Source of the DNA: Methylocapsa sp. S129
Lineage (GTDB): Bacteria; Pseudomonadota; Alphaproteobacteria; Rhizobiales; Beijerinckiaceae
DNA: 64,000 nt
Assembly: GCF_009765995.1 (NCBI RefSeq)
Contig: NZ_LMUI01000019.1
Span: 130,982 to 194,981, forward strand
Direction of reading: 5' to 3'
Shown: positions 49,102 to 64,000 of the stretch, piece by piece
Numbering within the stretch: the stretch's first letter is position 1
Layout of the letters: the number at the start of each line of letters is the position of its first letter
Made by a program: the position numbers and the translations under genes
The notes under the pieces: generated by a model
What the model saw: only the letters and a program-made list of their open reading frames with translations
The model's database searches: none
What the model was told of the DNA's origin: nothing

Positions 49102-50067
49102 GTGGTGGCTGTCGCCCGGCACGGCGGCTTCCGGATTGCGGCGCGCGAACTCGATATGTCGTCCTCGGCGCTCAGCCACGCGGTGGCGGCGCTGGAGGCG
49201 CGCCTGGGCGTTCGCCTATTCAACCGCACCACGCGCAGCGTCGCCTTGTCCGCCGAAGGCGAGCGGTTCGTCGCGGAAGTCGCCCCGGCTTTGGCTGCGA
49301 TCCGCACTGCCATGGAACACATCGATGAATATCGCGCCGAACCGGCAGGCGTCTTGCGTCTGAATCTGCCGCTCGGCGCAGGGCGGATGATCCTCGCGCC
49401 GCTGGTGTTCGAGTACATGCGCCACTATCCGCGGGTGGCGGTGGACATGGTGACCGAAGGGGCGATGGTGGACATCGTGAGGCACGGCTTCGACGTCGGC
49501 GTGCGGCTCGAAGAGTTTGTCCCGCCCGACATGATCGCCGTACCGATCACCCGTCCGATACGCTCTATCGTCGTCGGCTCCCCCGCCTATTTTTCGGCGC
49601 GCAGGAGGCCAAAGACTCCGGCTGAGCTGGCGCAGCACCGCTGCATTCGCCGACGCACGGGGAACGGGACGATCTATCGCTGGGAATTTGAAAAACGCGG
49701 TGAAGCCGTCGCGGTAGACGTCCAGGGCCAGTTGATCCTCGACGACGGCGACCTAATGCTGCAGGCCGCCCTGGCTGGGGAGGGTCTGGCCTATCTCTCT
49801 GACATCGCGACCGCGGCGTCGATCGAACCCGGCCTCTTGTTGCCGGTGCTCGAAGACTGGTCGCCAGAATTCCCGGGTCTTTGTCTCTACTATCCGAGCC
49901 GCCGCAACATTCCCGCCCGGTTGCGCGCCTTCATCGATCTGGCCCGCCGGCAGGCGAGGTACGCTTCACGCTTCCAGGGTGAGGCTCGGCTCCTAGGTCC
50001 CCGTGGGACTTCGACGCCCGCCGACTGTAGAGTTCATACAGTTCATCGACGACCCGCTGCGTCGTAG
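49102..50067 (+). CDS. LysR-family regulator, N-terminus probably damaged
   Basis: From GTG 49102 the protein has 321 residues, with most of the LysR HTH (FRIAARELDMSSSALSHAVAALE) and a full substrate-binding domain (PAGVLRLNLPLGAG to LRAFIDLARRQ). The first helix is cut. The frame before 49102 has no start. An ATG frame from 49043 encodes a LysR-like start (MRRANLS) but runs into another frame. Restoring four bases (GAGC doubled) near 49092 would give ANLSELEAVVAVARHGG. It may be inactive, in keeping with its broken SDR neighbour. Its 3' end overlaps glcF. Confidence 0.75.
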   Translation: MVAVARHGGFRIAARELDMSSSALSHAVAALEARLGVRLFNRTTRSVALSAEGERFVAEVAPALAAIRTAMEHIDEYRAEPAGVLRLNLPLGAGRMILAPLVFEYMRHYPRVAVDMVTEGAMVDIVRHGFDVGVRLEEFVPPDMIAVPITRPIRSIVVGSPAYFSARRRPKTPAELAQHRCIRRRTGNGTIYRWEFEKRGEAVAVDVQGQLILDDGDLMLQAALAGEGLAYLSDIATAASIEPGLLLPVLEDWSPEFPGLCLYYPSRRNIPARLRAFIDLARRQARYASRFQGEARLLGPRGTSTPADCRVHTVHRRPAAS

Positions 50068-51434
50068 GCGTGACCGGTTCGCGACCCAGTACTAGTCAAA
50101 ACCTTTGAGGTTTTTGCGCGCCGCGGCTCCGGGGTGCCTTGCGGGGTGGGGCCGCCGCAAGCCCAATCAAGAAGCTCTGCAGTGTGAACGATCGGGATCG
50201 ACGTTCCAGCGGCAATTTGTGTGATACAGCCAATATTGCCGGTGGCGATTAAATCCGGCTTCACACGTTCAATATTGGCGACTTTCCGGTCTCGTAAGCG
50301 CCCAGCGATTTCCGGCTGCAGGATGTTGTATGTGCCCGCGGAGCCACAGCAGATATGGCCTTCGGGCACGTCGCGCACGACGAAGCCCGCGCGACGCAAC
50401 AGCGCTTTCGGCTTGGTCGTGATTTTCTGACCATGCTGCATCGAGCAGGCTGAGTGATATGCTACGACGAGCCCGCTAGGATCGCCGAAGGGCAGATCGA
50501 GCCCGTTAAGATATTCCGTCACGTCTTTGGCCAGCGCGGAAACGCGGGCCGCCTTCTCCGCATAGCGCGGATCGTCGCGCAACATGAAGCCATAGTCCTT
50601 GATCGTCGTGCCGCAGCCCGACGCCGTCACGAGGATTGCCTCCAGGCCGCCGTCGTCGATCTCGCGCATCCAGACGTCGATATTGGCGCGCGCTTGCACG
50701 AGCGCACGCTCCTCGAGCCCCATATGATGGACCAGCGAGCCGCAGCAGCCTTCGCCGGTCGGCAACACGATGTCGACGCCAGCGCGGTTCAGCAGCCGGA
50801 TCGTGGCAGCGTTGATTTGCGGCGCCAGCACCGCCTGGGCGCAGCCGGTGAGCAGAGCGACGCGCTGGCGTCTATCCACGCCGTTGGCCGCATTGAAGGC
50901 GCCCGGTCCTTCGGTCGAAACGCGGGCGGGCAATTGCGCAGGCGCGAGCGTCATCATCGCGGTGAGCCTGGCGCCGACCCTAGGGATGCGTGCGAGGACG
51001 GGAGCCAGCGGCCGGCCGACCCTCGCAAACAGGAGCGCGGCGCGAAACAGATTGCGCGAGGGCAGCACGCGCGCCAGCAGCATACGCAACAGCCTGTCGC
51101 CGAGCGGGCGCCTGTAGGTCGCCTGGATATAGGCGCGGGCGTGATCGACTAAGTGCATGTAGTGCACGCCCGACGGACAGGTCGTCATGCAGGCGAGGCA
51201 CGAAAGACAGCGATCGACGTGTTTGACAACGTCCTTCGACGCCGCCCGGTTGTTCTCCAGCATGTCCTTGATGAGGTAGATGCGCCCGCGCGGACTATCG
51301 AGTTCGTCGCCGAGCAACAGATAGGTCGGGCACGTCGCCGTGCAGAAGCCACAATGAACGCAGGAGCGTATGACTTTCTCCGACGCCTGCATATGCGGAT
51401 CGGCGAGAAGAGTGGTGGAGAAATTCGTTCGCAC
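50043..51434 (-). CDS. glcF: Glycolate oxidase iron-sulfur subunit GlcF
   Basis: This 463-residue protein has two 4Fe-4S motifs (CVHCGFCTATCP near residue 25 and CLSCLACMTTCP near residue 77). Two CCG domains follow (GEGCCGSLVHH and GHICCGSAGTYN). GlcF passes electrons from the GlcD/GlcE flavoproteins to the quinone pool during glycolate oxidation. The start is a GTG at 51434, 6 bp after glcE. The last 25 residues overlap the convergent LysR gene and look unconserved. Confidence 0.92.
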   Translation of the reverse strand: MRTNFSTTLLADPHMQASEKVIRSCVHCGFCTATCPTYLLLGDELDSPRGRIYLIKDMLENNRAASKDVVKHVDRCLSCLACMTTCPSGVHYMHLVDHARAYIQATYRRPLGDRLLRMLLARVLPSRNLFRAALLFARVGRPLAPVLARIPRVGARLTAMMTLAPAQLPARVSTEGPGAFNAANGVDRRQRVALLTGCAQAVLAPQINAATIRLLNRAGVDIVLPTGEGCCGSLVHHMGLEERALVQARANIDVWMREIDDGGLEAILVTASGCGTTIKDYGFMLRDDPRYAEKAARVSALAKDVTEYLNGLDLPFGDPSGLVVAYHSACSMQHGQKITTKPKALLRRAGFVVRDVPEGHICCGSAGTYNILQPEIAGRLRDRKVANIERVKPDLIATGNIGCITQIAAGTSIPIVHTAELLDWACGGPTPQGTPEPRRAKTSKVLTSTGSRTGHAYDAAGRR

Positions 51435-51440
51435 AGAATC

Positions 51441-52697
51441 TCATATTCCCTGGTGCATGCGACCCGTATTGAACACGCCGTCGGGGTCGAAACTCGCTTT
51501 GACACCTCTGGTGATCTGCGCTAGCGGCGCCGACAGCGGTTCGAAAACATCGACGGCCTCGCGCAGTTCGTCGGGCGCGCGAACAAGCGTCGCGTGTCCG
51601 CCAAACGGCGCCAACGTGACGCGTATCGCGGCGGCGGAGCCCTGCGAAGCCTCGCTGCTCAGCCAGACGAGACCGCCGCCCCAATCGTAGAAACGCGCAT
51701 GTGCGCGGTTCCCGACCTTCGCGACGAATTCGGCGGCTTTGGAGGGGGCGAGGCTGACGCGCCAGACGGCTTGTTGGCGCGGCTCTGCGAGGAAGGCCGC
51801 ATCGCCGATAGCGCGCCATATCCGCTCGGAATATTTGTTTTCTAGCACATGTTTGGCGCCGAACGGCGCGAGCACCGCCAGTAGTGAGGCGATGCGATAG
51901 TCGACCGAGGCGCGAAAGCCCTCGATACGCAGGAACGTTTTCGGAAATTCGCAGCCCATGCCGGCCGAAATATGCGCCGCGCCGCTCACGCCGAACGGCG
52001 AACCCAAGGCGATTGACAAGGCTTCGATCGCGCGCTTGTCGTCGAGCCGCCGGATTACGATGCTGGATTCGCATTCGGGTTTCGGCAGTAGCTTGAAAGT
52101 CGCCTCGATCAGGAATCCAAGCGTTCCATGCGCGCCGCAATTAAGCTTGACGAGATCGAGGCCGGTGACGTTCTTCATGACGCGGCCGCCGCTCTTGATG
52201 ATTTCGCCGCGTCCGTTGATAAGACGCAGGCCAATCAGCGCATCGCGCGCCGCGCCAGCGCTGATCCGGCGCGGGCCAGAAATATTCGCCGCCGCCAAGC
52301 CGCCGATCGTCGGCTCGCCGGTGCTCGCATAGAGGCCGCGATGGTCCATCGGCTCGAAGGGCAGGGTCTGGCCGTGTTGCGCGATCAGCGCCTCGACTTC
52401 GCGGATGCTCGTTCCGGCTTTGGCGCAGATGACCATCTCGGCGGGTTCGTAGAAAACCACGCCCGACATTTGCGCCGAGCTCAGCGCGGCGTCGCCGCGC
52501 GCCGGACGCCCGAGGCCCTGGCGCGTGCCGCCACCGACGATATCAAGCTTTTGCCCCCTGCCGCGCGCTTCCGACACCCATTGCGCCGACTCGCTCTCCG
52601 AGGCCGGCGTCAACAATCGTCCCGCATAAGATTTCAAACCGCCGCCCTCCCCCACTGAACCCGCAAAGCTGATCGCCCCGATGCTGGCGCGGTTCAT
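51441..52697 (-). CDS. glcE: Glycolate oxidase FAD-binding subunit GlcE
   Basis: This 418-residue FAD-binding oxidoreductase is of the GlcE type. A PCMH-type FAD domain covers about residues 35-210 (VGGGTRQGLG, GLYASTGEPTIGGLAAANISGPRR, GGRVMKNVTGLDLVKL). The C-terminus has DPDGVFNTGRMH. It forms part of glycolate dehydrogenase with GlcD and GlcF. GlcD is not found in this window; the gene upstream encodes a different flavoprotein, 412 bp away. Confidence 0.9.
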   Translation of the reverse strand: MNRASIGAISFAGSVGEGGGLKSYAGRLLTPASESESAQWVSEARGRGQKLDIVGGGTRQGLGRPARGDAALSSAQMSGVVFYEPAEMVICAKAGTSIREVEALIAQHGQTLPFEPMDHRGLYASTGEPTIGGLAAANISGPRRISAGAARDALIGLRLINGRGEIIKSGGRVMKNVTGLDLVKLNCGAHGTLGFLIEATFKLLPKPECESSIVIRRLDDKRAIEALSIALGSPFGVSGAAHISAGMGCEFPKTFLRIEGFRASVDYRIASLLAVLAPFGAKHVLENKYSERIWRAIGDAAFLAEPRQQAVWRVSLAPSKAAEFVAKVGNRAHARFYDWGGGLVWLSSEASQGSAAAIRVTLAPFGGHATLVRAPDELREAVDVFEPLSAPLAQITRGVKASFDPDGVFNTGRMHQGI

Positions 52698-53109
52698 GGC
52701 GACGGATCGGACATTCGCGAAGATGCGGCGCGCGAATCAAGCGCCAATGGCGGGCAAACCGAGGACAAAAGTCTGGTGTGTCACAATGTCAGCGGGTGTT
52801 ACCTCTCAAATGAATTCACTTCGAACCCCACGTCTGGAGACGCGGAGGGAGTAGCGCGCGACTCCCTCCGCGGCCCCCGCGCATGCGAGCTTCGGGGAGG
52901 ACGGAAATCTCGCATTGGCGTACGGGCTAACCATGGAACGATCGATTCAGTTTGAGGATCAGGCCTCGAGATTGCTCTTCAGGATCTCCAACGCACCAAT
53001 AAGAGATCAGTCAAATATGAGCTTCCACATCCGGTAGGACCTCGCCTTTGGCACGCGTCGGAATTACTCCAGCGAAAAAATCGCCCGTTTACCTCTGAGT
53101 AACAAGTCA
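52698..53109. other. 412-bp gap between glcE and the KstD-like gene
   Basis: No gene and no glcD remnant could be read here. The gap contains the paired hairpins at 52831-52872. The part nearest 52697 should include the glcE promoter. The rest shows nothing recognisable. Confidence 0.45.
52831..52872 (-). terminator. Two adjacent hairpins after the KstD-like gene (possible terminator)
   Basis: CGCGGAGGGAGT (52841-52852) and ACTCCCTCCGCG (52861-52872) form a perfect 12-bp stem with an 8-base loop. The flanking CGTCT-GG-AGACG (52831-52842) is a second small palindrome that shares two bases with it. Both lie 240-280 bp downstream of the KstD-like stop. No T-run follows, so a Rho-assisted or processing role is more likely than a simple intrinsic terminator. 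Confidence 0.5.
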
Positions 53110-54873
53110 TTATGCTCGGACGGGTATGGCAACATGCCTAACCGCTCTGAATGCGAATACGATGGCGGGGCCAAGGGCGATGCCGGGACCGGGGTAGTAG
53201 CCTCGCATGGGCGACGCCAGATCGCTGCCGCAGGCATAGAGGCCCGGAATGGGGTTATCTATGTCGTCAAGTACCCGAGCGTCACGGTCGGTTTTCAGGC
53301 CGCAGGCCGTACCGAGCGTAGATGGGATGATCCGGAGTGCGTAAAACGGCGCCTTCTCGATCGGCCCAAGATTGGGATTCGGCTTCACCGCGGCATCGCC
53401 GAGAAGGCGATTGTAGTAATTCTTCCCTCGGTTGAATTCCGGATCGACTCCTGTTTTGGAGTTTTCGTTGTGCAATCGCACGGTCTGAGCCAGAGCCTCT
53501 GGATCGATGCCAATCCGAAGCGCCAACTCCTGGATGGTCTTGCCCTCGTAGATGTATTCCCGCTTGACGTAGCGGGTGAGGTTTCGGGTCCATGGGTAGG
53601 GCAGCAGCATGCCGAGGCCGCGCTTGCGCATGAACGCGCCATCGCAGATGAAAAAGAAGCGATTGTCGCTGCCGCCGCCGCTGTCGAACATCGCCGCGAT
53701 AATGTCGTGATAGGAGTTCGACTCGTTCACGAACCTCTTGCCGTGGGAATTGACGGCGATAAGGCCGGGTCGCCCACGATCGAGCCAGCCATACGGGTTC
53801 AGTTTCTCGGCGCCATCCGCGCGCGTGTAGATAGACGCAGGCGCCCAAAGCCCCGGGCTCGCCAAATCAGTATCGATCGCCGCCCCGATGGCCATGGCGG
53901 CCGTGAGGCCGTCCCCCGTGTTCGATTCGTAGACCAGCGAGTGAGAGTGCGGATAGTTCGCTGACAGGCGATGCCGCAGTTCGGGGCTGTGCGCGAAGCC
54001 GCCGGTCGCGAGCACGACGCCTTTGCGGGCCCGCACGCGAACAGCCTTGCCATGCCGTTTGATGACGGCCCCGAGCACACAACCCTCCTCGCGAATGAGT
54101 TCGGTCAGAGATGCTTCGATCCAGATGTCCGCGTTGGTCTGCTTCAGACTGTACACCAAGCGGCCCACAAGTGCGTTGCCGTTGCCGAGTTCGGTTCCGC
54201 GCGGAAAGCGCAGCCGATCCTTGGCGTAGCGCGCGAGGCGGCGGAGGACGTGCTTGAAATTAGCCTTCGACGAAAACGGCTTGAGGAAGGCTTGGATTTC
54301 GCTCGACGAGATCATCATGCCGCCCAACACCAACATACGCGGGAGCGGTGGGCAGACGAGGCCCAAGTCGGAGCCGAGTCGACGTCCGTCGAAGGGTCGG
54401 ATATTGAGCGCGCGCCCTTTGTCGAGTCCGCCGACCTGATCAGGATGATAGTCCGGCGCCGACGCGAGATCGAATTTTACCTCCGTTCCGTCTTCAAGCG
54501 TCGCCAACGCTTCCGCGCCGCTTGTGAGTAAAGCATCGACAAGATCGGCCCGATAATGGTTTCCAAGTTCATGACGCAGATATTGGCGGGCGCGATCGAT
54601 CGAATCCTCAATTCCGGCCTTCTGCGCTTGTTGGCTGCAAGGGATCCAGACCATACCGGCGGAGCGCGCCGTGGTTCCCCCCAACGTCGCCGACTTTTCA
54701 CACAGCAGCACGCTGAGGCCCTCTTTGGCGCCATAGAGGCTCGCGGCGAGGCCGCCGGCCCCGCTTCCAAGCACAAGGAGATCGGTTTCGAAGTCCCATG
54801 GGGCCGAGCCAGAGCCGAGTTGTTCCGGCCGCGGCTGAAGTGTGCTCTTGGGATGCGCCGAGACGTCGGTCAT
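53110..54873 (-). CDS. FAD-dependent oxidoreductase, 3-ketosteroid dehydrogenase/fumarate reductase type
   Basis: From the ATG at 54873 (GGAAAG five bp upstream) the protein has 587 residues. The N-terminal FAD loop is LVLGSGAGGLAASLYGAKEG, followed by LLCEKSATLGGTTARSAGM. ATGGFAHSPELR and the C-terminal RGYYPGPGIALGPAIVFAF complete the FAD site. The layout matches KstD and related flavoprotein desaturases, which introduce a C=C bond next to a ketone. Its context with TIM-barrel and sugar genes, not steroid genes, argues for another substrate. Confidence 0.82.
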   Translation of the reverse strand: MTDVSAHPKSTLQPRPEQLGSGSAPWDFETDLLVLGSGAGGLAASLYGAKEGLSVLLCEKSATLGGTTARSAGMVWIPCSQQAQKAGIEDSIDRARQYLRHELGNHYRADLVDALLTSGAEALATLEDGTEVKFDLASAPDYHPDQVGGLDKGRALNIRPFDGRRLGSDLGLVCPPLPRMLVLGGMMISSSEIQAFLKPFSSKANFKHVLRRLARYAKDRLRFPRGTELGNGNALVGRLVYSLKQTNADIWIEASLTELIREEGCVLGAVIKRHGKAVRVRARKGVVLATGGFAHSPELRHRLSANYPHSHSLVYESNTGDGLTAAMAIGAAIDTDLASPGLWAPASIYTRADGAEKLNPYGWLDRGRPGLIAVNSHGKRFVNESNSYHDIIAAMFDSGGGSDNRFFFICDGAFMRKRGLGMLLPYPWTRNLTRYVKREYIYEGKTIQELALRIGIDPEALAQTVRLHNENSKTGVDPEFNRGKNYYNRLLGDAAVKPNPNLGPIEKAPFYALRIIPSTLGTACGLKTDRDARVLDDIDNPIPGLYACGSDLASPMRGYYPGPGIALGPAIVFAFRAVRHVAIPVRA

Positions 54874-54931
54874 GGTTCTTTCCAAGCTTTACGTTTGCGA
54901 TGTTTCGATCGGGCGGTTCGGTCGCGCGCGC

Positions 54932-55759
54932 TCAGCCCATTCGAGCAGCCTTGAAGGCCTTGGCGGCGGCCAGCACCGCACGCTCGATCGGGATGCGCTC
55001 GATGCTCGATGCGGCCACGAAGCCGACGCAGTCGGTGTCTCGGTAGACGTTTTCAGTATCCTCGGGCTCGGAGATCGCTCCTCCATGCGCGAGGTAGATC
55101 GCTTCGCTTCCAACGGCGCGTGCGCCGGCGACTATGGCCTTGACCATCTCCAGGTCGGCTTTGCCGGTCTGCGCGGCGTCGTGACCCACCAGGCCGCCGC
55201 GCGTCGCCCCGACATGCGGCACAATGCAGTCGGCCCCGGCTTCCGCCATGGCCCGGGCGTCCTCGGGCGTCGCCACATAGGCCATGGAGAAGATCGAGGC
55301 GGCGTTGGCGCGGCGAACAAGCTCCACCTCGCGCTCGAAGCCGAGCCCGACACGTCCGCGCCGTTCGCGCCAGGTTTTGCCCATGGTCGAAATGGTCGGA
55401 TAGTTGATGATTCCTGAGAACCCCGCGGTCTGAAAGTCTTCGAGGAGGTCGTCGAGATCGAGGCGGGTCGGGTCCCAGGCCTCGATTCCTCCGATGATGG
55501 GGACATCGGCGACGACGTTTCGGATTTCGGCCGCGATCGCGATCGTAGCGGCGTTGGAATCGCCGATACGACTCGTCGGCAGCCCCATCAATCGGGATCG
55601 CCCGGTGCTATACACGACGAGCAGATCGGCACCTCCCATGGCTGCGCATTTTGCCACGAGGCCGCAACTACTGCCTGCCGCGAGAATCGGAGCGCTAGCC
55701 GCGATCTGGGCGCGAAGGCGGGCGAGGATTTCGTGCCGCTTAAAGAACTTCTTGGCCAT
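54932..55759 (-). CDS. PEP-hydrolase-like TIM-barrel protein (C-terminal half of Tm-1 type)
   Basis: This 275-residue protein starts MAKKFFKRHEILARLRAQ and has the family features. They are GSSCGLVAKCAAMGGADLLVVYS, FSGIINYPTIS, GFEREVELVRRA, ATPEDARAMAEAGADCIVPHVG and HGGAISEPEDT. It belongs to the TIM-barrel signal-transduction/PEP-hydrolase family (Pfam PF09370 by my recollection). In tomato Tm-1 this domain follows the UPF0261 domain in one chain. Here its start overlaps the end of the UPF0261 gene by 20 bp. The enzymatic activity is unproven. Confidence 0.85.
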   Translation of the reverse strand: MAKKFFKRHEILARLRAQIAASAPILAAGSSCGLVAKCAAMGGADLLVVYSTGRSRLMGLPTSRIGDSNAATIAIAAEIRNVVADVPIIGGIEAWDPTRLDLDDLLEDFQTAGFSGIINYPTISTMGKTWRERRGRVGLGFEREVELVRRANAASIFSMAYVATPEDARAMAEAGADCIVPHVGATRGGLVGHDAAQTGKADLEMVKAIVAGARAVGSEAIYLAHGGAISEPEDTENVYRDTDCVGFVAASSIERIPIERAVLAAAKAFKAARMG

Positions 55760-57002
55760 CGACGGCTTTCTCGGAAATGGACAGCGTTGCAAGGATCCAA
55801 TCGACCGCCGCCCGTGCGAAGTGTGGGTCGTTGATGTGGCAGTCGACAACGCGCAGGTCGGCGCGCTTCGGCAGTGTTGCGCGCAAGCCGTCGAGGAAGG
55901 CCTGGTCCGCGGCCGGGTCGAAGAACGGCTGTCCTGGCCGGTCGTAGTCCGAGAACCCGCCCGATGGAAAGAGCACTGTTAGTTTGCCGCGCCCCATCGC
56001 AAGTTGCCGGCCCGCCATCATCCCGATCCGCCGGTTCTCGTCGACATCAGTGCGCACCAAAGTTGTGTGGGGCGTGTGCTGATAGAATAGTCGTCCTTCG
56101 AACTTCTGTGGGACTTGAGTCCGCGGTCCGAAGTTGATCATGTCGACGGCCCCTGGAGCCACCAGATGCGGGACGCCTGTCATGCCCGCCGCCGTCAGCC
56201 GATCCGGACCCGCTGACGCGCTCCCGCCGGCAATCTCGTCGGCGAGTTCGGTGATCGTGAGATCAAGCACCGCATCGATCTCGCCGGCCAGCACCAGGCG
56301 CTCCATCAATCGGCCGCCGGCGCCATTCGCCGGAAACGCGATGGGTTCGACGCCTGCGGCCTTAAGCAAGGCAACGCATTGACTGACGGCCGCCGTCGTG
56401 ACCCCGAACGCCGTGACGCCGACCACCTTCCGGCGATGGTCGGGCGGCTTTCGCCATTCCATCGCCGCGACCGCCGCACCAGCATTTCGCAGCACACGCT
56501 CGGTGAAATCGTTGACACCGAAAAGATCGACCAGCGTTGGAAACAGTGCGATGTCCGTCGTCTCCGCGAAACTTGCAAGCAGCTGCGGACGTGCGCTCGA
56601 CACCAACACCTTGGGAAATCCGAAGGGGAGGTCCGCGACAGCTTCCTTGAAAAGGGCGCTCCCTTTGCCGCCCGCGATACCTATCACAGCCCGGATTCGG
56701 CCTTCCGCCTGCAATCTTGTGGCGACCGCTTTCGCGCCCGCCGCCATCACGGTCAGGGCCGCAGCGGGCCCGCCGGACCTCGTGAACGCAGCTTCCCCGC
56801 CGCCCTGCTTCTCGACTTCTGCTCTCGTTACGTCCCCAGAAATCCCGGGGGCGTCGGACGTCCCGACATCGATCACCAGCACAGGTCGTCCGATTTGCAG
56901 CAGAAGATCTCGTACGAAGGAGACTTCCGGCCCTTTGGTGTCGAGGGTCGCGACAATTGCAATGCTGGCGGCCGAAGGGCATAAAGAGCGCGCGTCAGCC
57001 AC
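55740..57002 (-). CDS. Tm-1-like ATP-binding protein (UPF0261)
   Basis: This 420-residue UPF0261 protein begins IAIVATLDTKGPEVSFVRDLL, with VIDVGTSDAPGISGDV. It also has GIAGGKGSALFKEAV, FPKVLVSSARPQLLASF, TDIALFPTLVDLFGVN and GVTAFGVTTAAV, all typical. The N-terminal half of tomato Tm-1, which binds ATP and blocks tobamovirus replicase, is the known eukaryotic relative. The bacterial role is unknown. The start is GTG 57002. It heads the unit UPF0261-TIM barrel-KstD-like, and a dyad lies in its promoter. Confidence 0.88.
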   Translation of the reverse strand: MADARSLCPSAASIAIVATLDTKGPEVSFVRDLLLQIGRPVLVIDVGTSDAPGISGDVTRAEVEKQGGGEAAFTRSGGPAAALTVMAAGAKAVATRLQAEGRIRAVIGIAGGKGSALFKEAVADLPFGFPKVLVSSARPQLLASFAETTDIALFPTLVDLFGVNDFTERVLRNAGAAVAAMEWRKPPDHRRKVVGVTAFGVTTAAVSQCVALLKAAGVEPIAFPANGAGGRLMERLVLAGEIDAVLDLTITELADEIAGGSASAGPDRLTAAGMTGVPHLVAPGAVDMINFGPRTQVPQKFEGRLFYQHTPHTTLVRTDVDENRRIGMMAGRQLAMGRGKLTVLFPSGGFSDYDRPGQPFFDPAADQAFLDGLRATLPKRADLRVVDCHINDPHFARAAVDWILATLSISEKAVDGQEVL

Positions 57003-57060
57003 GACATGCCGCCCCGACCGTGAACCGCGGTGTAGAAGACGTCGGCTTAGTCATCAGTCT

Positions 57061-57116
57061 ACTCCTCCCAACGCCGCGCGGCTCAGGGCGCGTCGCATTG
57101 TCGTTGGGAAGGGAGT
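57061..57116. promoter_or_regulatory. Inverted repeat between the UPF0261 gene and its divergent neighbour
   Basis: TCCCAACG (57066-57073) is repeated inversely as CGTTGGGA (57102-57109), and the outer ACTCC (57061-57065) as GGAGT (57112-57116). The two half-sites are 28 bp apart in a 174-bp divergent promoter region. It is a fair candidate operator for the nearby TIM-AAA-Fis regulator. Confidence 0.5.
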
Positions 57117-57176
57117 AAGGCTTATGTCGGCTTTGCGTCAGGTGGAATACTGCCGATGACGGGTAAGATTGGGTAA

Positions 57177-57899
57177 TTGATCGGGTCATCCTTGCGCGTG
57201 CTTCTTCGCAGTTCCTTATCGCTTGCAACCGACAGCCCCGTGCTCTACGCGCCTTCGCTGCGTCAGCTCGCTCCTGACGCGACCCTCGTTATGGCGACCT
57301 TGCCGATCCTCGATTGGAACGCCGCGCTTCTGGCTGATCTGGCAGCGGTTGATGTCGGACCCGCGCCGCGTGTCTATGCCGCTGTGCTCGCGACCGACCC
57401 ATTCGCCTGTTGGGAAGATATCGCCGACGCCTTGAGGGGCGCCGGCGTCAGTGGTGTGTCGAACTTCCCGAGTTTGGCTTTGGTAGACCGGTCAGCGCTG
57501 GCCGACCTCGATGCCGCCAACCTCGGCTACGCACGCGAACTCGATCGCCTCGCCTGGTTCGCCGGCGATGGCTTTCACGTGCTGGGGATAGCCGCTACGC
57601 CCGATCAGGTCGTCGAAGCGCGAAACCGACTTGGCTCGTCGCTCGACGCCTTGTGCCTGACTGAGGCCGGCGACCTTCACCGCTCGCTCAATACCGGTCT
57701 CGCTTTGGTTCGCGCATTCGAATGTGCGGCCGGGGAAGACCCCGCGCCGGGCGCGCCGATACTGCGGATCGCCGAGGAGAACGCGCCCACGAAAAAAAGC
57801 AAGACGACCCGCGTCTCGACCCGCACGCCGACGGCGCGAGCGGAGCCACAAGTCGATCGAGCGCCTAGGCGGCGCTCTTCCGTTAATCGAGGATCTTGA
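57177..57899 (+). CDS. Short divergent TIM-barrel paralog, function unknown
   Basis: The 240-residue product has the central block of the neighbouring TIM-barrel family. This is GAGVSGVSNFPSLALVDRSA at about residues 88-107, then NLGYARELDRLAWFA and GIAATPDQVVEARNRLG, aligning with GFSGVTNFPSVIHL and GYDREVSLLL of the regulator. The first barrel strands are reduced and the last strands (HGGG-type) are missing. The C-terminal 45 residues are basic and low-complexity. It may be a degenerate enzyme or a partner subunit. The start is uncertain (TTG 57177 or TTG 57192). Its end overlaps the regulator gene. Confidence 0.65.
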   Translation: MIGSSLRVLLRSSLSLATDSPVLYAPSLRQLAPDATLVMATLPILDWNAALLADLAAVDVGPAPRVYAAVLATDPFACWEDIADALRGAGVSGVSNFPSLALVDRSALADLDAANLGYARELDRLAWFAGDGFHVLGIAATPDQVVEARNRLGSSLDALCLTEAGDLHRSLNTGLALVRAFECAAGEDPAPGAPILRIAEENAPTKKSKTTRVSTRTPTARAEPQVDRAPRRRSSVNRGS

Positions 57900-59751
57900 G
57901 CGCCTTGATCTTGTTATAGAGGGTCTTGCGGGAAATGCCGAGGAACCGGGCGGTGCGGCTGCGGCTAAGCTTGTTGCGGCGCAGGCCGTCGATGATCCAG
58001 TCTCGCTCCGACAGGTCTTTGGTCTTGTTGCTCGAAATACGTGTGTCTAGCAGCGACGCGAGCCGTTCGGCAGTGACGCGGCTGCCCGGCGCGAGCGTCG
58101 AGAGCCGTTCGACGACGTGCCGCAATTGTCGGACGTTGCCCAGCCAATCAAGGTCGGCGAGCGCGCGGAACGCGGAGTTCTCGAGAATGACCGAGCGCGA
58201 TCCGCCTTCGCCTTTGAACTCGACTAGAAAGTGCTGGATCAGAAGTGGTAGATCCTCAAGCCGGTCGCGGAGCGGCGGAAGAACAACTTCGAACCCAGAG
58301 AGCGCTTCCGCTAGGCTCGGCGCAACGGCTCCCGCCGCGACGAGGCGGCCCAGATCCGCCGACGCGGTCGCAATGATCTTCGCTTCGGACCAGACGAGAG
58401 CCGATCCGCCAACAGGAGTGAAGCTTCCTCTTTCGAGGTAGTCGGCCAGTCTTTCCTGACAGCCCAGCGCCAAATGATCGAGATGAACAATCAGCACCGA
58501 CGAGTCGCTCGCCGATTCCAGAATTGAGATCCGCCGTTTCGTGCCGCCATGCCCCTCGACGCCGAACAAGGCCTCAGCCTGTTCGGTGGCCGCCCCGGCG
58601 TGGCAGGTGAAGACCGTGGATTGCCGCCCCTTCCGCGGGCTGACAGCATGGATCAACTCCCCCATGGTCCGCTTGCCGGTCCCCGGCTCCCCGACGATCA
58701 GCGCCGGGTTCGAACCCGAGGCCAGGCGCTTGGCGGTTTCAAGCGCCTGATTCATGGCAGCCGATTGAGCGACGACGCCGTGCTGATAGCCGCTCAAGCG
58801 CAATTGCCGCTCGAGGGCGTCTACTTTGTTTCGAAGAACGTTGATCGTCTTAAAGCCCGCCGTGATTTCGAGCACTGAAGTTTGCAGCGGGACGCGGTCG
58901 AGGCTCGAGCCGCCGATGAACCCCTGAGCGCCGGTTTCTCGGCAAACATCGAGCAACTCGTCCGGTTTCGTGATGGGGCCGCCGCCCAGCAGGCAGACCA
59001 CTTTGCGATCGATCGCGTGAACGCAGCGCGCCATGTCGCGGGTGCGCGCCGCCATCTCGGTCAAACCGATCGCCGGCGACGCTGCGTCCGGTCGGCCGGA
59101 ATTCAAATTGAAATTAATGCAGATTGCGCGCACGCCCGCCTCGGCCATGCGCCGTGCGTCGCTTTGGGTCCGGGTGTAGCCCAAAGCGGCAAGACCAACT
59201 CGCTGAGCGCCCAGGAGCAGCGAGACTTCGCGATCGTAGCCCAGCCCAAGACCTTCCAGCGCAGCTCGGCGTCCTTCGTCCAGATGAATCACCGAGGGAA
59301 AGTTCGTGACGCCGCTGAACCCCCAGCGCGCCAACTTGTCGAGGAAGGCGTTGATCTCCAGCCGAGGATCAAACGTGCACGCCCCGAAGAATACGGGCAG
59401 TTTAGTGTTCGGCAGGATCTCGGTCCGGGCGAAGCCGGCCACGAACGTGTTGTTGTCGCGGATGGGGAGGACCGAGGCCGGAGAGGAGCCCCCCATAGTG
59501 CGAAAACGCCCGGCGGAAAGCGCCAGAAGGAAATCGGCTCCCGCCCGTTCTGCCGCCTGGGCGGTCATGCCGGAGCCGATCGCAGCGCCCAAAATGAACG
59601 CACGCGGGTCGCGCAAGTCCTTCTGCAGCCAGAAAGACTTCCGGCTCGCCGGCGTCAGCGCACCAGCGTCGGAGTCGGCCGCGGTGCTCAGGCCGGTGCC
59701 TCCTCTGCCCGAACGCGCCCGATCAATTCCATCGTTCCGAAACTCCTTCAC
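57883..59751 (-). CDS. TIM-barrel/AAA+/Fis fusion transcription regulator
   Basis: This 622-residue protein has a PEP-hydrolase-like TIM barrel at about 40-300, with WGFSGVTNFPSVIHLDEG at 143-160 and GGGPITKPDE near 260. A short coiled coil (301-320) and an NtrC-type AAA+ domain (325-550) follow, with Walker A GEPGTGKR at 354-361. The Fis HTH is at 583-620. GAFTGA is missing, replaced by GVEGHGGTKRRI, and the Walker B acidic pair is LDH (residues 424-426, VHLDHL). It is therefore unlikely to activate sigma-54 by the standard route. It probably senses a metabolite through the barrel and controls this cluster. Confidence 0.87.
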   Translation of the reverse strand: MKEFRNDGIDRARSGRGGTGLSTAADSDAGALTPASRKSFWLQKDLRDPRAFILGAAIGSGMTAQAAERAGADFLLALSAGRFRTMGGSSPASVLPIRDNNTFVAGFARTEILPNTKLPVFFGACTFDPRLEINAFLDKLARWGFSGVTNFPSVIHLDEGRRAALEGLGLGYDREVSLLLGAQRVGLAALGYTRTQSDARRMAEAGVRAICINFNLNSGRPDAASPAIGLTEMAARTRDMARCVHAIDRKVVCLLGGGPITKPDELLDVCRETGAQGFIGGSSLDRVPLQTSVLEITAGFKTINVLRNKVDALERQLRLSGYQHGVVAQSAAMNQALETAKRLASGSNPALIVGEPGTGKRTMGELIHAVSPRKGRQSTVFTCHAGAATEQAEALFGVEGHGGTKRRISILESASDSSVLIVHLDHLALGCQERLADYLERGSFTPVGGSALVWSEAKIIATASADLGRLVAAGAVAPSLAEALSGFEVVLPPLRDRLEDLPLLIQHFLVEFKGEGGSRSVILENSAFRALADLDWLGNVRQLRHVVERLSTLAPGSRVTAERLASLLDTRISSNKTKDLSERDWIIDGLRRNKLSRSRTARFLGISRKTLYNKIKALKILD

Positions 59752-60835
59752 GCCGAAACGCGACGCCGTCCTTCGAAAACAGGTAACAATCCCGCGGCGC
59801 TACCGCAATGCTTGCGCTAGCCTCCTTGCCTCGCACCTGGTTGCTCGGGGACACGGCCACGATCGCGTCGCTGCCGACGGCGCCGTAGAGATAGGTGACG
59901 CTCCCGAGATGCTCGACAACGTCGACGACGATATCGAGCGACAATTCGTCCCGATTCGCGCCGGGCGGGACGAAGTCGTCCGGTCGAATACCAAGTACAA
60001 GGGGACTGCCCGACGGGAGGTCGATTGCGCCGACTGGCAACGTCACGCCGCGGCCATCTGACAATGTGATCCTCGCGCCTTCTCTCGTCGCCTCGACAAG
60101 GCGGCAGTCGAGGAAATTCATCTTGGGCGAGCCGATGAAACCCGCCACGAACTGAGACGCGGGATGATGGTAGAGGTCATAGGGCGCGCCTACCTGTTCG
60201 ATGCGGCCGGCCCGAAGCACGACGATCTTGTCGGCCATCGTCATGGCCTCGACCTGATCGTGCGTGACGTAGATCATCGTGTTCCCGAGCTGACGATGCA
60301 GCTTGGCGATCTGGATACGCATCTGCACACGGAGTTCGGCGTCGAGATTTGACAATGGCTCATCGAACAAAAAGACTTTCGGCTCGCGCACGATGGCGCG
60401 CCCGATCGCGACACGCTGGCGCTGACCGCCGGACAATTGCCGCGGCTTGCGATCGAGCAGATGTTCGATCTGCAGTAGCTTCGCGGTCTCGCCCACCCGG
60501 GCTTGTATTTTGGATTTCGTCGCCTTCGCCATCTCCAGCGGGAAGGCCATGTTCTGACCGACGGTCATGTGCGGGTAAAGCGCGTAGTTCTGAAACACCA
60601 TGCTGAGATTGCGGTCCGCGGCATCCACGTCGTTGACAGTGCGACCGTCAACGCACAGGCGCCCGCTCGTGATGCGTTCCAGGCCTCCTATCATGCGCAA
60701 GAGCGTCGATTTCCCCGAACCAGACGGTCCGACGAACACGACGAACTCCCCATGAGAGATTTCGAGGTTGATGTCGCGCAGAATTTCGACGCTGCCGTAA
60801 GCCTTGTTGATTCTCTCCAGCTTGACATCGGCCAT
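59723..60835 (-). CDS. ABC transporter ATPase, sugar type (UgpC/MalK-like)
   Basis: From MADVKLERIN at 60835 the protein has 370 residues. Walker A is GPSGSGKST, the signature is LSGGQRQRVAIGRAI, Walker B is VFLFDEPLSNLD, and the switch His is in YVTHDQVEAM. A C-terminal TOBE/OB regulatory domain is present (LGIRPDDFVPP). Such ATPases serve CUT1 carbohydrate importers. The matching permease is at 63384; the other permease and the binding protein must be beyond the right edge. The 3' end overlaps the regulator start by 29 bp. Confidence 0.92.
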   Translation of the reverse strand: MADVKLERINKAYGSVEILRDINLEISHGEFVVFVGPSGSGKSTLLRMIGGLERITSGRLCVDGRTVNDVDAADRNLSMVFQNYALYPHMTVGQNMAFPLEMAKATKSKIQARVGETAKLLQIEHLLDRKPRQLSGGQRQRVAIGRAIVREPKVFLFDEPLSNLDAELRVQMRIQIAKLHRQLGNTMIYVTHDQVEAMTMADKIVVLRAGRIEQVGAPYDLYHHPASQFVAGFIGSPKMNFLDCRLVEATREGARITLSDGRGVTLPVGAIDLPSGSPLVLGIRPDDFVPPGANRDELSLDIVVDVVEHLGSVTYLYGAVGSDAIVAVSPSNQVRGKEASASIAVAPRDCYLFSKDGVAFRREGVSERWN

Positions 60836-60885
60836 CGGTAACTCCCTCACTACATCTGTTATTGACCAGGCTCTGCACCGCACCG

Positions 60886-61677
60886 TCAGGTCGGAATTTC
60901 GGATAAGCTCTCGATTACAATGTCGGGGGGTGACAGACCTGGCTCCTCCGGTTCGGCCACGCCTGTGGTGACCAACACAGAGTAAAGACCGGCGCGCTTG
61001 CCAGCCTGGATATCGGTCGCAACCTGGTCTCCGATCATCAGCGTCGATTCTCTCGGCGTGCCCAGCCGTTGCAAGGCGGTCTCGATCATATGCGGTTCCG
61101 GCTTGCCGAGGACGATGGGTCGAACTCGCGTGGCTGCGGAAACAGCAGTCAGCATCGCACCGGCGCCCAGCTCGAAGCCATTCGCGGTCGGAAGCAAAAG
61201 ATCCGGATTGGTACCGATGAGCGTCGCTCCGGCGAGCAGCGCGTCCACCGCGACGCAGAGCTTTCGGTGACTGATGTTGCGGTCCAGACCCATGACGATC
61301 ACTTCCGGCGATCGGTCAGTGATTTCGAATCCGGCCGCGGCGATGGCGTTGTATAACGCCGGCGCGCCGATCACGAAGACAGGCGTCCTCGGTGGCCAGC
61401 GCTCCTTCATCATCTGCGCCGCTACGAGGCTCGAGGTGACAATACGTTCCGGAGTAACGGTAACTCCGAAGAACCTTAGCTTCTCGGCGACATCCTCGGG
61501 TGAGCGCGTCGAATTGTTGGTGACGAACGCATAAGGAATGCCGGTCCGCTCCCAATTGTTGAAAGCCTGAATCGCATCGCGAATCCCCACTTCGCCACGG
61601 TAGACGACCCCGTCGAGATCGGAAATGATCCCCTTGACCGCAGGCCAGCCCAAGAGATTTCCGTTGCGCTCAACCAT
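60886..61677 (-). CDS. HAD-IIA phosphatase (NagD-like)
   Basis: This 263-residue HAD hydrolase has motif I SDLDGVVYRG (nucleophile Asp), motif II FVTNNSTRS, a C2 cap, GKPEPHMIE with motif III Lys, and motif IV MIGDQVATDIQAGKRAGL. NagD-like enzymes remove phosphate from small sugar phosphates or nucleotides. It overlaps the SDR gene by 8 bp, so it is co-translated with the kinase and dehydrogenase genes. Confidence 0.88.
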   Translation of the reverse strand: MVERNGNLLGWPAVKGIISDLDGVVYRGEVGIRDAIQAFNNWERTGIPYAFVTNNSTRSPEDVAEKLRFFGVTVTPERIVTSSLVAAQMMKERWPPRTPVFVIGAPALYNAIAAAGFEITDRSPEVIVMGLDRNISHRKLCVAVDALLAGATLIGTNPDLLLPTANGFELGAGAMLTAVSAATRVRPIVLGKPEPHMIETALQRLGTPRESTLMIGDQVATDIQAGKRAGLYSVLVTTGVAEPEEPGLSPPDIVIESLSEIPT

Positions 61678-62443
61678 TCATCAACATCCCGCCATTTACG
61701 TGTATCATCTGGCCGGTGATGTAATCCGCGGCAGGGCTCGCGAGGAAAACGGCGAGACCAACAAGATCCTCGGGGTTTCCGACCCGCCCCAGGGGAATTC
61801 TGCCGTGGTGCCGGGCCTCGGTCTCCTCACGTGGCCGGCCATGCATGGGCGTATCGATTATACCGGGAGCGATGCCGTTCACGGTGATCCGATGCTGGGC
61901 GCATTCGTAGGCGAGCAGCTTCGTAATATCGTGCACGACCGCCTTGGATAGGCAATAGTCCGCTCCGCCGGCCTGATAGTTGAACACGGCGCCCTGCGAT
62001 GACAATGACGAGCCTATGTTGATAATGCGACCGGCGCCGTTCTTGATGAAACGCCGCACCGCGAGACGGGAGCAGAGCAGAACCGCATCGGTATTGATCT
62101 TCATGGTGCGTTCGATTTTTCCCCTGTTGCCAGTGAGCAGAGATTCGCTCGACTTAATTCCGGCGTTGTTAATCAGGATGTCGAGGCGACCGAACCGTTG
62201 CGTCACCGTGTCGAGCACCGCGGAAATCTGCTCCTCTTCGGTCACGTCCATCGCAAGGGCCAGCACGCTACCATTGTCTCCGTGATCCGCGAGTGCGCGG
62301 GTGAGCGCCTCGCGGTTGGTGTCGGTCGCCACCACATTGGCTCCCGCCTCGCAAAACGCCACCACGAGCGCGCTGCCGATTCCGCCCGCTGCGCCGGTGA
62401 TAAGGACGGTGTGTCCGCTGAGGGAAAACGATAGATCTGTCAT
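61670..62443 (-). CDS. SDR-family sugar/polyol-type dehydrogenase
   Basis: From MTDLSFSLSG at 62443 the protein has 257 residues. It has the TGAAGGIGSA loop, an acidic residue after beta-2 (ATDTNRE, favouring NAD), NNAGI, the Ser in IGSSLSS, YCLSK as the catalytic Tyr-Lys, and the C-terminal GQMIHVNGGM typical of FabG-like SDRs. Context suggests it oxidises a sugar, polyol or sugar acid. It overlaps the kinase gene by 4 bp. Confidence 0.88.
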   Translation of the reverse strand: MTDLSFSLSGHTVLITGAAGGIGSALVVAFCEAGANVVATDTNREALTRALADHGDNGSVLALAMDVTEEEQISAVLDTVTQRFGRLDILINNAGIKSSESLLTGNRGKIERTMKINTDAVLLCSRLAVRRFIKNGAGRIINIGSSLSSQGAVFNYQAGGADYCLSKAVVHDITKLLAYECAQHRITVNGIAPGIIDTPMHGRPREETEARHHGRIPLGRVGNPEDLVGLAVFLASPAADYITGQMIHVNGGMLMNG

Positions 62444-63387
62444 AAGGGCTCCACAAGCGATCGGCTGGCTAGAAAAGCGTCCACGGTCTCGACCGAGGGC
62501 ATGGCGGATTGCGCGCCTGCGCGAGTGACGCACAGCGCGGCGACCGCCATGGCATAGCGGATGGCGCGCTCAATAGGCGCCGAGCGGGCGAGCGCCGCGG
62601 CCAATCCCCCGGTGAAGGCGTCTCCCGCGGCGGTGGTGTCGAGGGCTTTCACCGGGAAGGCCGGAACATGAAAGCGGCGTTGGTCGTCCGCGTAGAACGC
62701 GCCCTGCGCGCCCAGTGTGACGATGACAGCCCGTACGCCGAGATCGAGAAGTCCTTCGGCGGCGCGCTCGGCCGAGACGAGATCGACGACCTCGATCCCA
62801 GTGAGATCAAACGCCTCCGTCTCATTGGGCGTCGCGTAGTCGACTTGCCGCCATGCCGCCTTCGTCAAACCCTTCCGCACCGGCGCCGGATTGAAGATCA
62901 GCTCGAACCCGTAATCGGGTTTCAGCGCAAACAGACGCTCCAGAGCCGCGTTGGGCAGCCCCATTTCGGCAACCACGAGGGCCCCTGCCCCGATAAGACT
63001 CGCAACCCGCTCGATGTCGCGTTCCGACATCGACTGATTTGCCCCCGATTCAATGCCGATGATGTTGCCGCCGTCGCCGTCGACTATGATCAGCGCTGTT
63101 CCGGAGTTGGCGCCGCGCACAGTCTCTATTGCGTCAGTCTGGACGCCCGCATCGAGAAGTGCGCGTTTCAAAATCGCGCCCGCCTCGTCGTCGCCAAGCT
63201 TGGTGAAGAGCCGCGGCGCGAGACCGAGCCGAGCCGCTGCGACGGCCTGGTTCGCACCCTTGCCGCCGGGATACCGGATGAGATCGCCCATCACCGATTG
63301 TCCCCGCGTGGGAAGACGATCGACCGAGAGGCAGAAATCGAGGTTGCAGGTTCCAAAGAAGATGAGAGGTTTCGGCGCGCCGGTCAC
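62440..63387 (-). CDS. Ribokinase-like PfkB carbohydrate kinase
   Basis: This 315-residue PfkB-family kinase has the N-terminal GGKGANQAVAAARLG substrate motif and the C-terminal DTTAAGDAFTGGLAAA motif with the catalytic Asp in GDAF. TVNGAQG-like ATP contacts are in VTLGAQGAFY. It most resembles ribokinase, but the sugar cannot be assigned. The start is a GTG in a GTGA overlap with the permease stop. Confidence 0.9.
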   Translation of the reverse strand: MTGAPKPLIFFGTCNLDFCLSVDRLPTRGQSVMGDLIRYPGGKGANQAVAAARLGLAPRLFTKLGDDEAGAILKRALLDAGVQTDAIETVRGANSGTALIIVDGDGGNIIGIESGANQSMSERDIERVASLIGAGALVVAEMGLPNAALERLFALKPDYGFELIFNPAPVRKGLTKAAWRQVDYATPNETEAFDLTGIEVVDLVSAERAAEGLLDLGVRAVIVTLGAQGAFYADDQRRFHVPAFPVKALDTTAAGDAFTGGLAAALARSAPIERAIRYAMAVAALCVTRAGAQSAMPSVETVDAFLASRSLVEPL

Positions 63388-64000
63388 TTGACCGCCCCGA
63401 AGGTGAGACCGCGTTCGAGGTGCCGCTGCCCGAGCAGGATAAGGACTACGGGAACCGCCATGGTGACGACGAGACCCGCAGCCATGACAGGATAAAACTG
63501 CACACCGGGGTTCAACAGCTTCAGAAGCGCGACTGTAACCGGGGCTTTGGCGGAGCTCAACATCAAGCCGAGCGCAAAATTGTGCCAGGCGAGCAGGAAC
63601 ACGAGCAGCGACGCGCCGATCAGGCCTGGTTTCAACAGCGGCAGGACCACGCGCCAGACGATCTGGATCGAACTGGCGCCGTCCATCGCGGCGGCGTCCT
63701 CAAGCTCCCGCGGGATGTCCTCGATATAGGACCTACTGAGCCACACGATCATCGGTAAGGTGACGACCTGATACACCCAGATCATGCCGACGTAAGTGTC
63801 GTAGAGGCCGATCGCTTGAAAGACGCTGAAGAGCGGGATGACGACGAGCAGGACTGGCGCGAAGCGGAATCCCAAGATAAAGAACGCGATATCTTCCTTG
63901 TAGGGGATATCCCGCCGAGCCAGCACATAGCCGACCGGGACGCCGACGATGACTGACACGATAACAGATCCGACCGCGATGATAACGCTGTTCTCGATGG
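63384..64000 (-). CDS. ABC sugar transporter permease (partial, CUT1 MalG type)
   Basis: The frame is open to the right edge and the N-terminus is not seen; IENSVIIAVGSVIVSVIVG continues upstream of an internal GTG at 63959. Five membrane helices are visible. The cytoplasmic EAA loop is present as ELEDAAAMDGASSIQIVWRVVLPLLKPG. The short C-terminal tail (QRHLERGLTFGAVK) is typical of MalG-like permeases. It is coupled to the kinase gene by overlap. Confidence 0.9.
   Translation of the reverse strand, partial: IENSVIIAVGSVIVSVIVGVPVGYVLARRDIPYKEDIAFFILGFRFAPVLLVVIPLFSVFQAIGLYDTYVGMIWVYQVVTLPMIVWLSRSYIEDIPRELEDAAAMDGASSIQIVWRVVLPLLKPGLIGASLLVFLLAWHNFALGLMLSSAKAPVTVALLKLLNPGVQFYPVMAAGLVVTMAVPVVLILLGQRHLERGLTFGAVK

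Follow-up and report, generated by a model that had tools for sequence, protein, structure and literature searches.

The window analysed here, a stretch of 64,000 nucleotides from Methylocapsa sp. S129, encodes a regulator in which a PEP_hydrolase barrel is fused to a sigma-54-type AAA+ domain and a Fis-type HTH. Judged by sequence comparison, this protein is probably a one-component, ligand-responsive regulator of the sigma-70 type, with a dead enzyme as its sensor, that runs two operons from the direct repeat TACCCANNNTTACCCA.

The reading frame of the regulator is open and intact at 57883-59751 on the minus strand and starts with GTG (Table 1). Pfam assigned PEP_hydrolase to residues 50-303 (E 2.7e-74), Sigma54_activat to 327-483, AAA_lid_14 to 495-577 and HTH_8 to 582-617, confirming the fusion of TIM barrel, sigma-54-type AAA+ domain and Fis HTH proposed in the original prediction; the PF09370 match on which this proposal depended reached 250.2 bits, compared with a curated cut-off of 33.8. 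A receiver match was absent among the 17 Pfam families listed. Mean column identity was 80% in 33 regulator sequences. Alignment A1 comprised 32 of 34 relatives (without L009 and L030) and alignment A2 26 of 29 (without L009, L025 and L030). AlphaFold models of the regulator (33 rows, pLDDT 55.0) and of the short barrel protein (27 rows, pLDDT 59.4) were of low confidence. Databases name the regulator family phosphoenolpyruvate hydrolase or sigma-54-dependent regulator. PADLOC matches to RtcR, none of which starts before residue 304, were rejected as AAA+ cross-matches.

Table 1. Features of the regulator locus, in window coordinates
Feature	Position	Strand	Remarks
FAD_binding_2 oxidoreductase	53110..54885	-	after PEP_hydrolase gene; same position in close relatives
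Stand-alone PEP_hydrolase with both invariant His (H212, H255)	54932..55849	-	profile match and alignment
UPF0261 (Tm-1-like ATP-binding) gene, first of putative target operon	55740..57002	-	profile match
Putative sigma-70-like promoter of UPF0261 operon	57112..57140	-	family-wide phasing; weak match alone
Operator-like direct repeat TACCCAATCTTACCCG	57160..57175	-	immediately upstream of short barrel gene's ORF
Short truncated PF09370-like gene	57177..57899	+	convergent with regulator; TTG start of ORF is mechanical
Fusion regulator (barrel, AAA+, Fis HTH)	57883..59751	-	622 aa; counterparts in 34 loci
Fis-type HTH (HTH_8), residues 582-617	57901..58008	-	Pfam; SRKTLYNK nearly invariant
AAA+ core and lid, residues 327-577	58021..58773	-	Pfam and alignment
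PEP_hydrolase (PF09370) barrel, residues 50-303	58843..59604	-	Pfam; Foldseek best match 2p10
UgpC/MalK-type ABC ATPase	59723..60883	-	just upstream of regulator, same strand; ORFs overlap
HAD-IIA family hydrolase, ABC operon	60886..61677	-	
SDR dehydrogenase, ABC operon	61670..62533	-	
PfkB-type sugar kinase, ABC operon	62440..63387	-	
ABC permease	63384..63959	-	191 aa as listed in window; 286-aa ORF in L155

The AAA+ domain has retained Walker A (GEPGTGK, with K360), as predicted. GAFTGA is replaced, and the loop LFGV---EGHGGTKRRI is three residues shorter in the alignment than that of the relative L128; the Walker B Asp-Glu columns are occupied by V422-H423. Walker B had correctly been called altered, but the LDH named as its replacement falls just after these columns. 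Both candidate arginine-finger columns, located by what we take to be the finger residues and numbering of NtrC1, contain Ala (A477 and A483), a replacement that had not been noticed in the original prediction. GAFTGA and the Walker B DE pair are absent from all 35 proteins (the window regulator and 34 relatives), and the GK of Walker A is present in each of them. Because the losses are common to all 34 relatives, a sequencing or frame error is argued against; the alignment revealed neither an intact GAFTGA nor an intact Walker B, in agreement with the original prediction. Wider sampling identified six family members that retain GAFTGA, and Walker A too is lost in some lineages of the family. 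As read from its sequence, the regulator is a sigma-54-type AAA+ protein with an HTH and without GAFTGA, and on this feature it fits the GAFTGA-less sigma-70 bEBP group. Caulobacter NtrC, which has no GAFTGA, is reported still to need Walker A and B residues (PMC10274813); loss of GAFTGA alone is therefore no proof of a dead motor. Having lost its contact loop for sigma-54 and the residues for hydrolysis, the AAA+ domain of the regulator probably acts as an ATP-binding or oligomerisation scaffold.

Comparison of the fusion barrel with the neighbouring stand-alone enzyme revealed that H212 and H255 of the latter correspond to N213 and G256. Each of the two His was found in 119 of 120 stand-alone rows, but in 0 of 62 fusion rows; these rows, like the 77 regulator loci analyzed below, include near-duplicates (e.g. 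L065/L137, L037/L124, L010/L072). Other core residues are kept in the fusion rows, namely R84, P152, E175 and S282 in 62/62, N150 in 61/62 and D128 in 52/62. From their conservation, we infer a catalytic role of the two invariant His, and the fusion barrel looks like a pseudoenzyme sensor, a dead copy of the adjacent enzyme. The earlier idea of an enzyme fold serving as sensor is thus supported, although not proved, by the loss of both His throughout the fusion rows. The barrel is homologous to Mll9387 (PF09370 PEP_hydrolase, PDB 2p10; E 1.4e-31, Foldseek E 1.2e-18), from which it differs by the replacement of both His and by its fusion to a regulator. A further homologue is the C-terminal domain of plant Tm-1-like proteins; the other half of these proteins is reported to be UPF0261 (PMC5028733), and a UPF0261 gene adjoins the system here. 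Among the matches listed from the open-access literature, those bearing on the function of the UPF0261/PEP_hydrolase pair were a paper on Tm-1-like evolution, Tm-1 papers and incidental mentions.

The consensus TACCCANNNTTACCCA was found at 89 sites with ≤1 mismatch in the 77 regulator loci (1.11 Mb), compared with 1, 0, 0 and 0 sites in four dinucleotide shuffles of these loci; four of the 77 loci had no repeat at ≤2 mismatches. The genome of the strain itself (6.87 Mb) contains three sites, and two of them lie upstream of the two operons of this system. The second of these is located about 118 bp upstream of the ATG of a solute-binding protein, to which the ABC operon continues beyond the end of the window. 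A backwards control pattern matched five times in this genome as compared to three forward matches, so that the site count does not exceed chance expectation and only the placement of the sites is telling. At loci of stand-alone PEP_hydrolase genes, which span 2.4-3.8 kb and only just cover the operon promoter, the repeat occurred with ≤1 mismatch in 3 of 74 (L100, L103, L107), all three from fusion-bearing loci; at ≤2 mismatches, nine matches were found in five of the 74, including L061 from a genome in which no fusion was seen. Sequences read backwards gave 45 matches versus 89 at ≤2 mismatches; this control was discounted, since a direct repeat read in reverse coincides partly with the true motif in a shifted register. 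With ten permuted patterns, the number of matches ranged from 1 to 29.

Promoter elements beside the repeat differ between the two kinds of loci. In 6/6 GAFTGA loci the repeat is followed at 20-200 bp by a near-consensus -24/-12 match (≤1 mismatch), as compared to 1 of 67 GAFTGA-less loci with a repeat, where the match is located within coding sequence. These numbers support, without proving, the original prediction that regulation occurs without classical sigma-54 activation. Locus L155, which covers both operons, had no such match upstream of either operon, and at ≤2 mismatches the single match in window positions 50001-64000 is at 62338, inside the SDR gene. In GAFTGA-less loci, 48 non-redundant sites were compared: T was found in 73% at +35 and in 67% at +36 from the repeat, and a TA started within +57 to +60 in 30 of the 48 (mean of 5.2 in other windows of positions). 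Apparently, a sigma-70-like promoter follows the repeat at fixed spacing in GAFTGA-less loci, and this spacing places the repeat near -62. For the UPF0261 operon the putative elements are TGACGC (-35, 57135-57140) and TACTCC (-10, 57112-57117), both weak matches in the window. GAFTGA-less NtrC proteins acting at sigma-70 promoters provide a reported precedent (PMC10274813).

A counterpart of the short barrel gene was present in 72 of the 77 regulator loci, and its protein matched 2p10 in Foldseek over 96-114 columns. The centre of the repeat lies ≤35 bp from the approximate start of this gene in 53 of the 66 GAFTGA-less loci that have it. The truncated barrel protein is possibly a partner of the regulator, and binding of the regulator at the repeat would repress the short gene, whose start the repeat abuts. 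This gene, the operator-like repeat and the canonical relatives had not been seen in the original prediction.

Because all six GAFTGA loci group into a single clade, the correlation of GAFTGA with -24/-12 elements is close to one evolutionary contrast. In an AAA+ tree, calculated without 26 near-duplicate loci and including nine other activators (three of them themselves without the exact string GAFTGA), the GAFTGA clade is placed beside these activators as sister to the rest of the family, so that one loss is sufficient. In a barrel tree without 22 Bradyrhizobium loci, L067 and L073, the GAFTGA clade is nested inside the family, which implies several losses if GAFTGA was never regained. The family forms one clade (support 97/85); with the nine activators sampled, nothing points to a recent exchange of the AAA+ domain. 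In one genome, G468, the fusion is broken by one TGA and one TAG in the frame; its loci L141 and L142 were thus not counted as fusion loci. A broader scenario, which we consider possible but do not favor, would be a single orthologous regulon on both sides of a switch from sigma-54 to sigma-70, in which regulator, operator and promoter changed together and intermediate AAA+ domains survive elsewhere. Sensing would then involve two dead enzyme copies, the fused full barrel and the truncated barrel encoded beside the operator, the latter binding the ligand or the sensor and tuning it.

According to the preferred reading, the ligand of the fused barrel would be a metabolite, presumably an intermediate, from the neighbouring UPF0261/PEP_hydrolase pathway, and the regulator would bind the repeat TACCCANNNTTACCCA. 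From operators near -62 of sigma-70-type promoters it would activate, rather than repress, one operon of UPF0261, PEP_hydrolase and FAD oxidoreductase genes and a second one comprising sugar ABC transporter, kinase, SDR, HAD, UgpC and regulator genes. A pure repressor or anti-activator that is released from the same repeat by ligand, without activating RNA polymerase, is unlikely, yet it deserves the most attention among the alternatives: binding near the start of the short gene would block transcription, and relatives such as TyrR can repress, its paralogue PhhR being reported to replace it as repressor (PMC3162934). However, the repeat precedes the phased -35/-10-like elements of the operons and does not cover them, which is the usual arrangement for an activator, and the GAFTGA sister clade presumably activates the orthologous operon. 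We regard it as rather improbable that the repeat is the site of another, co-occurring regulator and that the fusion protein does something else. Fis-type HTH dimers do not typically use direct repeats with a 10-bp period, and a few regulator loci have no site, but the site tracks the fusion gene, with even the stand-alone loci carrying it at ≤1 mismatch being fusion-bearing.

The remaining explanations are still less probable. The barrel has retained many of its core residues, as would be expected of a bifunctional trigger enzyme with an active barrel; both enzyme-invariant His are nevertheless replaced in every fusion row and a stand-alone copy having both adjoins, so that we give this reading little credit. 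Activation of sigma-54 through an unusual L1 loop would agree with the presence of rpoN in the genome and with the sigma-54-dependent annotation of some relatives, but appears very improbable given that GAFTGA, the Walker B acid pair and the candidate arginine fingers are all missing and that L155 shows no -24/-12 match at ≤1 mismatch. Hardly any weight falls on a decaying AAA+ domain in a gene heading to a pseudogene: the broken fusion in G468 and the lineages without Walker A are opposed by the open frame, the nearly invariant HTH, the column identity and the conserved gene neighbourhood and repeat.

Like the regulator, the GAFTGA-less bEBPs (NtrC of Rhodobacter capsulatus and Caulobacter, TyrR, DhaR, VpsR) combine AAA+ domain and HTH without GAFTGA. 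Their sensors are of other kinds, whereas that of the regulator is a barrel resembling a dead enzyme; furthermore, its Walker B and arginine-finger positions are also lost, and its family includes canonical members with an orthologous operon. Sigma-70-type targets have been reported or proposed for these bEBPs (PMC10274813, PMC3162934). NtrX was the best NCBIfam match of the AAA+/HTH part (145.1 bits), far below the cut-off of 600, and Brucella NtrX (5m7n-5m7p) was among the best structure matches; unlike NtrC/NtrX response regulators, the regulator has no receiver domain. Another activator in the genome of the strain itself, L163, adjoins an NtrC-like gene; it also has no GAFTGA but keeps a Walker B DE, and by its position we infer that it is NtrX-like. 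DmpR/CapR likewise have a ligand-binding domain before AAA+ domain and HTH, and the DmpR-phenol complex 6iy8 was among the matches; both are sigma-54 activators with a different sensor fold. FleQ of Pseudomonas aeruginosa, an AAA+ regulator reported to act at both sigma-54 and sigma-70 promoters (PMC10723142), has the GAFTGA loop and ATPase residues and performs both modes itself, whereas in the regulator family the two modes appear split between lineages. No title on a barrel-AAA+-HTH fusion was found among the matches listed from the open-access literature on GAFTGA-less regulators or barrel/pseudoenzyme sensors.

The abandonment of sigma-54 by AAA+ activators is usually studied protein by protein. 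Here, canonical and eroded members occur in related clusters with the same repeat, which makes the order of motor losses and promoter change testable, and the relatives with their apparent DNA sites suggest how a regulator moves between promoter types. A pseudoenzyme barrel would join the known sensor types, and a family that still carries the database names given above obtains a predicted operator and regulon. The system also offers a handle on the chemistry of UPF0261 and PEP_hydrolase, which are fused in plants as the virus-resistance protein Tm-1.

Domain matches to PF09370, a sigma-54-type AAA+ module and a Fis HTH (see table) bore out the original prediction that the regulator is a fusion of these three parts. 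An alignment agreed with its further claim that Walker A is kept and GAFTGA altered: the GAFTGA motif was absent, and the loop at this position was shorter by three residues. Walker B was altered as proposed, except that the LDH named in its place was slightly misplaced; the DE columns were occupied by V422-H423. Both candidate arginine-finger columns contained alanine (A477 and A483). All 34 relatives from the GTDB collection likewise lacked GAFTGA and DE and possessed the GK of Walker A.

Regulator, its domains, the neighboring short gene and repeat sites in the genome of Methylocapsa sp. S129
Feature	Position	Strand	Remark
Fusion regulator, 622 aa	57883-59751	-	ORF
PF09370	residues 50-303 of regulator		Pfam match
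Sigma-54-type AAA+ and lid	residues 327-577 of regulator		Pfam match
Fis HTH	residues 582-617 of regulator		Pfam match
Short truncated PF09370-like gene, diverged	57177-57899	+	counterpart in 72/77 regulator loci
Repeat site 1	57160-57175 of window		
Repeat site 2	~118 bp upstream of solute-binding-protein start, ABC operon		
Repeat site 3	C56:180126-180141, another contig		1 mismatch

Stand-alone barrels retained H212 and H255 each in 119 of 120 rows, a conservation which points to a catalytic role of both residues. Neither was retained in any of 62 fusion rows, where H212 was replaced by N (57), G (2), V (2) or D (1) and H255 by G (39), E (21), A (1) or V (1); R84, G123, P152, E175 and S282 (window numbering) were present in all 62. 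As judged from these alignments, the fused barrel shows the pattern of a binding domain stripped of its original chemistry. In a barrel tree, 38 fusion barrels formed a single clade separate from 36 stand-alone barrels (100/100).

GAFTGA, DE and the arginine-finger residues were all kept in only four of the 62 aligned fusions (L128, L131, L132, L133); two further GAFTGA members, L156 and L157, were found later. Partly eroded AAA+ domains were seen in L070, with DE and no GAFTGA, and in L137, with EE and RDLYYRL; L138-L140 had lost Walker A as well. The HTH was nearly unchanged across these 62 fusions. An AAA+ tree with nine other activators as outgroup resolved the family as a single clade (97/85), the GAFTGA members (100/96) being sister to all others. 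In a barrel tree with a distant outgroup, the four GAFTGA members then known were nested within the family (97/92).

Upstream regions contained an operator-like direct repeat, TACCCANNNTTACCCA, with a period of 10 bp. In 77 regulator loci, including the window copy, 89 sites were found at ≤1 mismatch (four shuffles: 1, 0, 0, 0) and 108 at ≤2 mismatches (7, 3, 8, 5); at the latter threshold 73 loci had at least one site. No site at ≤2 mismatches occurred in L141 or L142, which are not counted among the 77. The regulator of L141 (G468:C144) is broken by one TGA and one TAG in frame, with a stand-alone PEP_hydrolase gene close by. Among 74 stand-alone PEP_hydrolase loci, which span 2.4-3.8 kb and thus only just cover the operon promoter as a control, the repeat occurred in three at ≤1 mismatch (L100, L103, L107; all from fusion-bearing loci) and in five at ≤2 mismatches, only L061 being from a genome in which no fusion was seen. 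The own genome contained three sites and five matches to a backwards control pattern; therefore, the positions of the sites and not their number count as evidence. In the six GAFTGA loci the repeat is larger, with two to three same-strand direct copies and at least one inverted copy, and eroded members have a pair. L066 and L067, which lack GAFTGA, and L131, which has it, share a TTGATTTGC element downstream of the repeat.

The stretch 20-200 bp downstream of the repeat contained a sigma-54-type -24/-12 match with ≤1 mismatch in 6/6 GAFTGA loci versus 1/67 GAFTGA-less loci with a repeat (71 GAFTGA-less loci in total). The match lay immediately upstream of UPF0261 in L131, L132, L133, L156 and L157; in L128 it lay beside the short gene, pointing toward UPF0261 about 5 kb further on. 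The lone GAFTGA-less match (L071) fell inside the solute-binding-protein gene. Anywhere in the loci, 27 matches occurred in 1.03 Mb of GAFTGA-less and seven in 74 kb of GAFTGA sequence. The Fisher P-value of 4e-8 treats related loci as independent and the six GAFTGA loci are one clade, so that the correlation of GAFTGA with sigma-54 promoter matches is close to one evolutionary contrast. At 48 non-redundant GAFTGA-less sites, T followed the repeat at +35 in 73% and at +36 in 67%, and a TA started within +57 to +60 in 30 sites; other four-base windows had a mean of 5.2 and a maximum of 19, which probably falls around +36, another place with many TA steps. Several sites had no TA at +57 to +60, and some lineages do not fit. 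With +58 as the -10 of a sigma-70-like promoter, the repeat would be centered near -62, the position of a class I activator. Promoter-like elements of the UPF0261 operon in the window were weak (TGACGC and TACTCC).

The short gene was absent from L017, L020, L021, L029 and L031; of the 72 loci possessing it, 69 carry it on the opposite strand, and in 64 it converges with the regulator gene. Among the 66 GAFTGA-less loci having the short gene, the repeat was centered ≤35 bp from the approximate gene start in 53, and not in 13. Core residues were largely kept over 72 rows (N 72, P 72, E 68, D 65, P 69), and alignment was poor across the C-terminal third. Predicted structures were of low confidence, including that of the short protein, whose structural matches at E ≤ 0.001 were the six chains of 2p10 only. 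Plasmid records label the gene hypothetical or PEP hydrolase, and no described role was found in the open-access literature searched; its product may be a partner, ligand buffer or anti-regulator.

PF09370 matched in 27/289 genomes of the class sample, 27/398 of the phylum sample and 96/297 of the order sample, chiefly as stand-alone proteins. These samples yielded 18 fusion loci (L123-L140), confirmed by a regulator profile; in the phylum sample, three genomes with a match fell outside the class (G318, G489, G596), and these had short stand-alone frames only. Full-length relatives (limit E 1e-60) occurred in 36 plasmid records, including pNGR234a and pMLa, all from alphaproteobacterial genera. 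A second layout, with cupin and Gfo/Idh/MocA oxidoreductase genes ahead of the regulator, was seen in L066, L067, L070 and L071. Twelve genomes of the same family, listed without a match (11 plus G639), all lack PF09370, which suggests horizontal acquisition. About 5 kb from the cluster lies a gene for an integrase-like protein (Arm-DNA-bind_3; 46697-48058, +), and G+C is lower at 44001-48000; this may be the edge of an island, but no tRNA was found other than tRNA-Pro at 31941-32018. Adjoining the cluster, 50043-52697 (-) encodes proteins of glycolate-oxidase type: a GlcE-like FAD protein and an iron-sulphur protein that contains cysteine-rich domains.

GAFTGA-less NtrC proteins with sigma-70 targets are described for R. 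capsulatus and Caulobacter in PMC10274813; the former needs ATP binding and not hydrolysis, whereas the latter depends on residues of Walker A as well as of Walker B. PMC3162934 names DhaR, VpsR and YplP as wrongly classed sigma-54 activators and mentions sigma-70 dependency for DhaR and TyrR. Given these relatives, we would place the window protein, by mode of action, with the GAFTGA-less sigma-70 group and not with the sigma-54 activators. As a whole, a ligand-responsive sigma-70-type regulator acting on the UPF0261/PEP_hydrolase and sugar ABC operons via the repeat appears a reasonably probable explanation; its probability is slightly lowered by the stand-alone control, which barely covers the promoter, and by the 13/66 loci with no repeat beside the short gene. 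Most likely, the regulator would induce the transport and breakdown of a sugar-like compound, which would be handled by the products of the kinase, SDR, HAD, UPF0261, PEP_hydrolase and FAD oxidoreductase genes.
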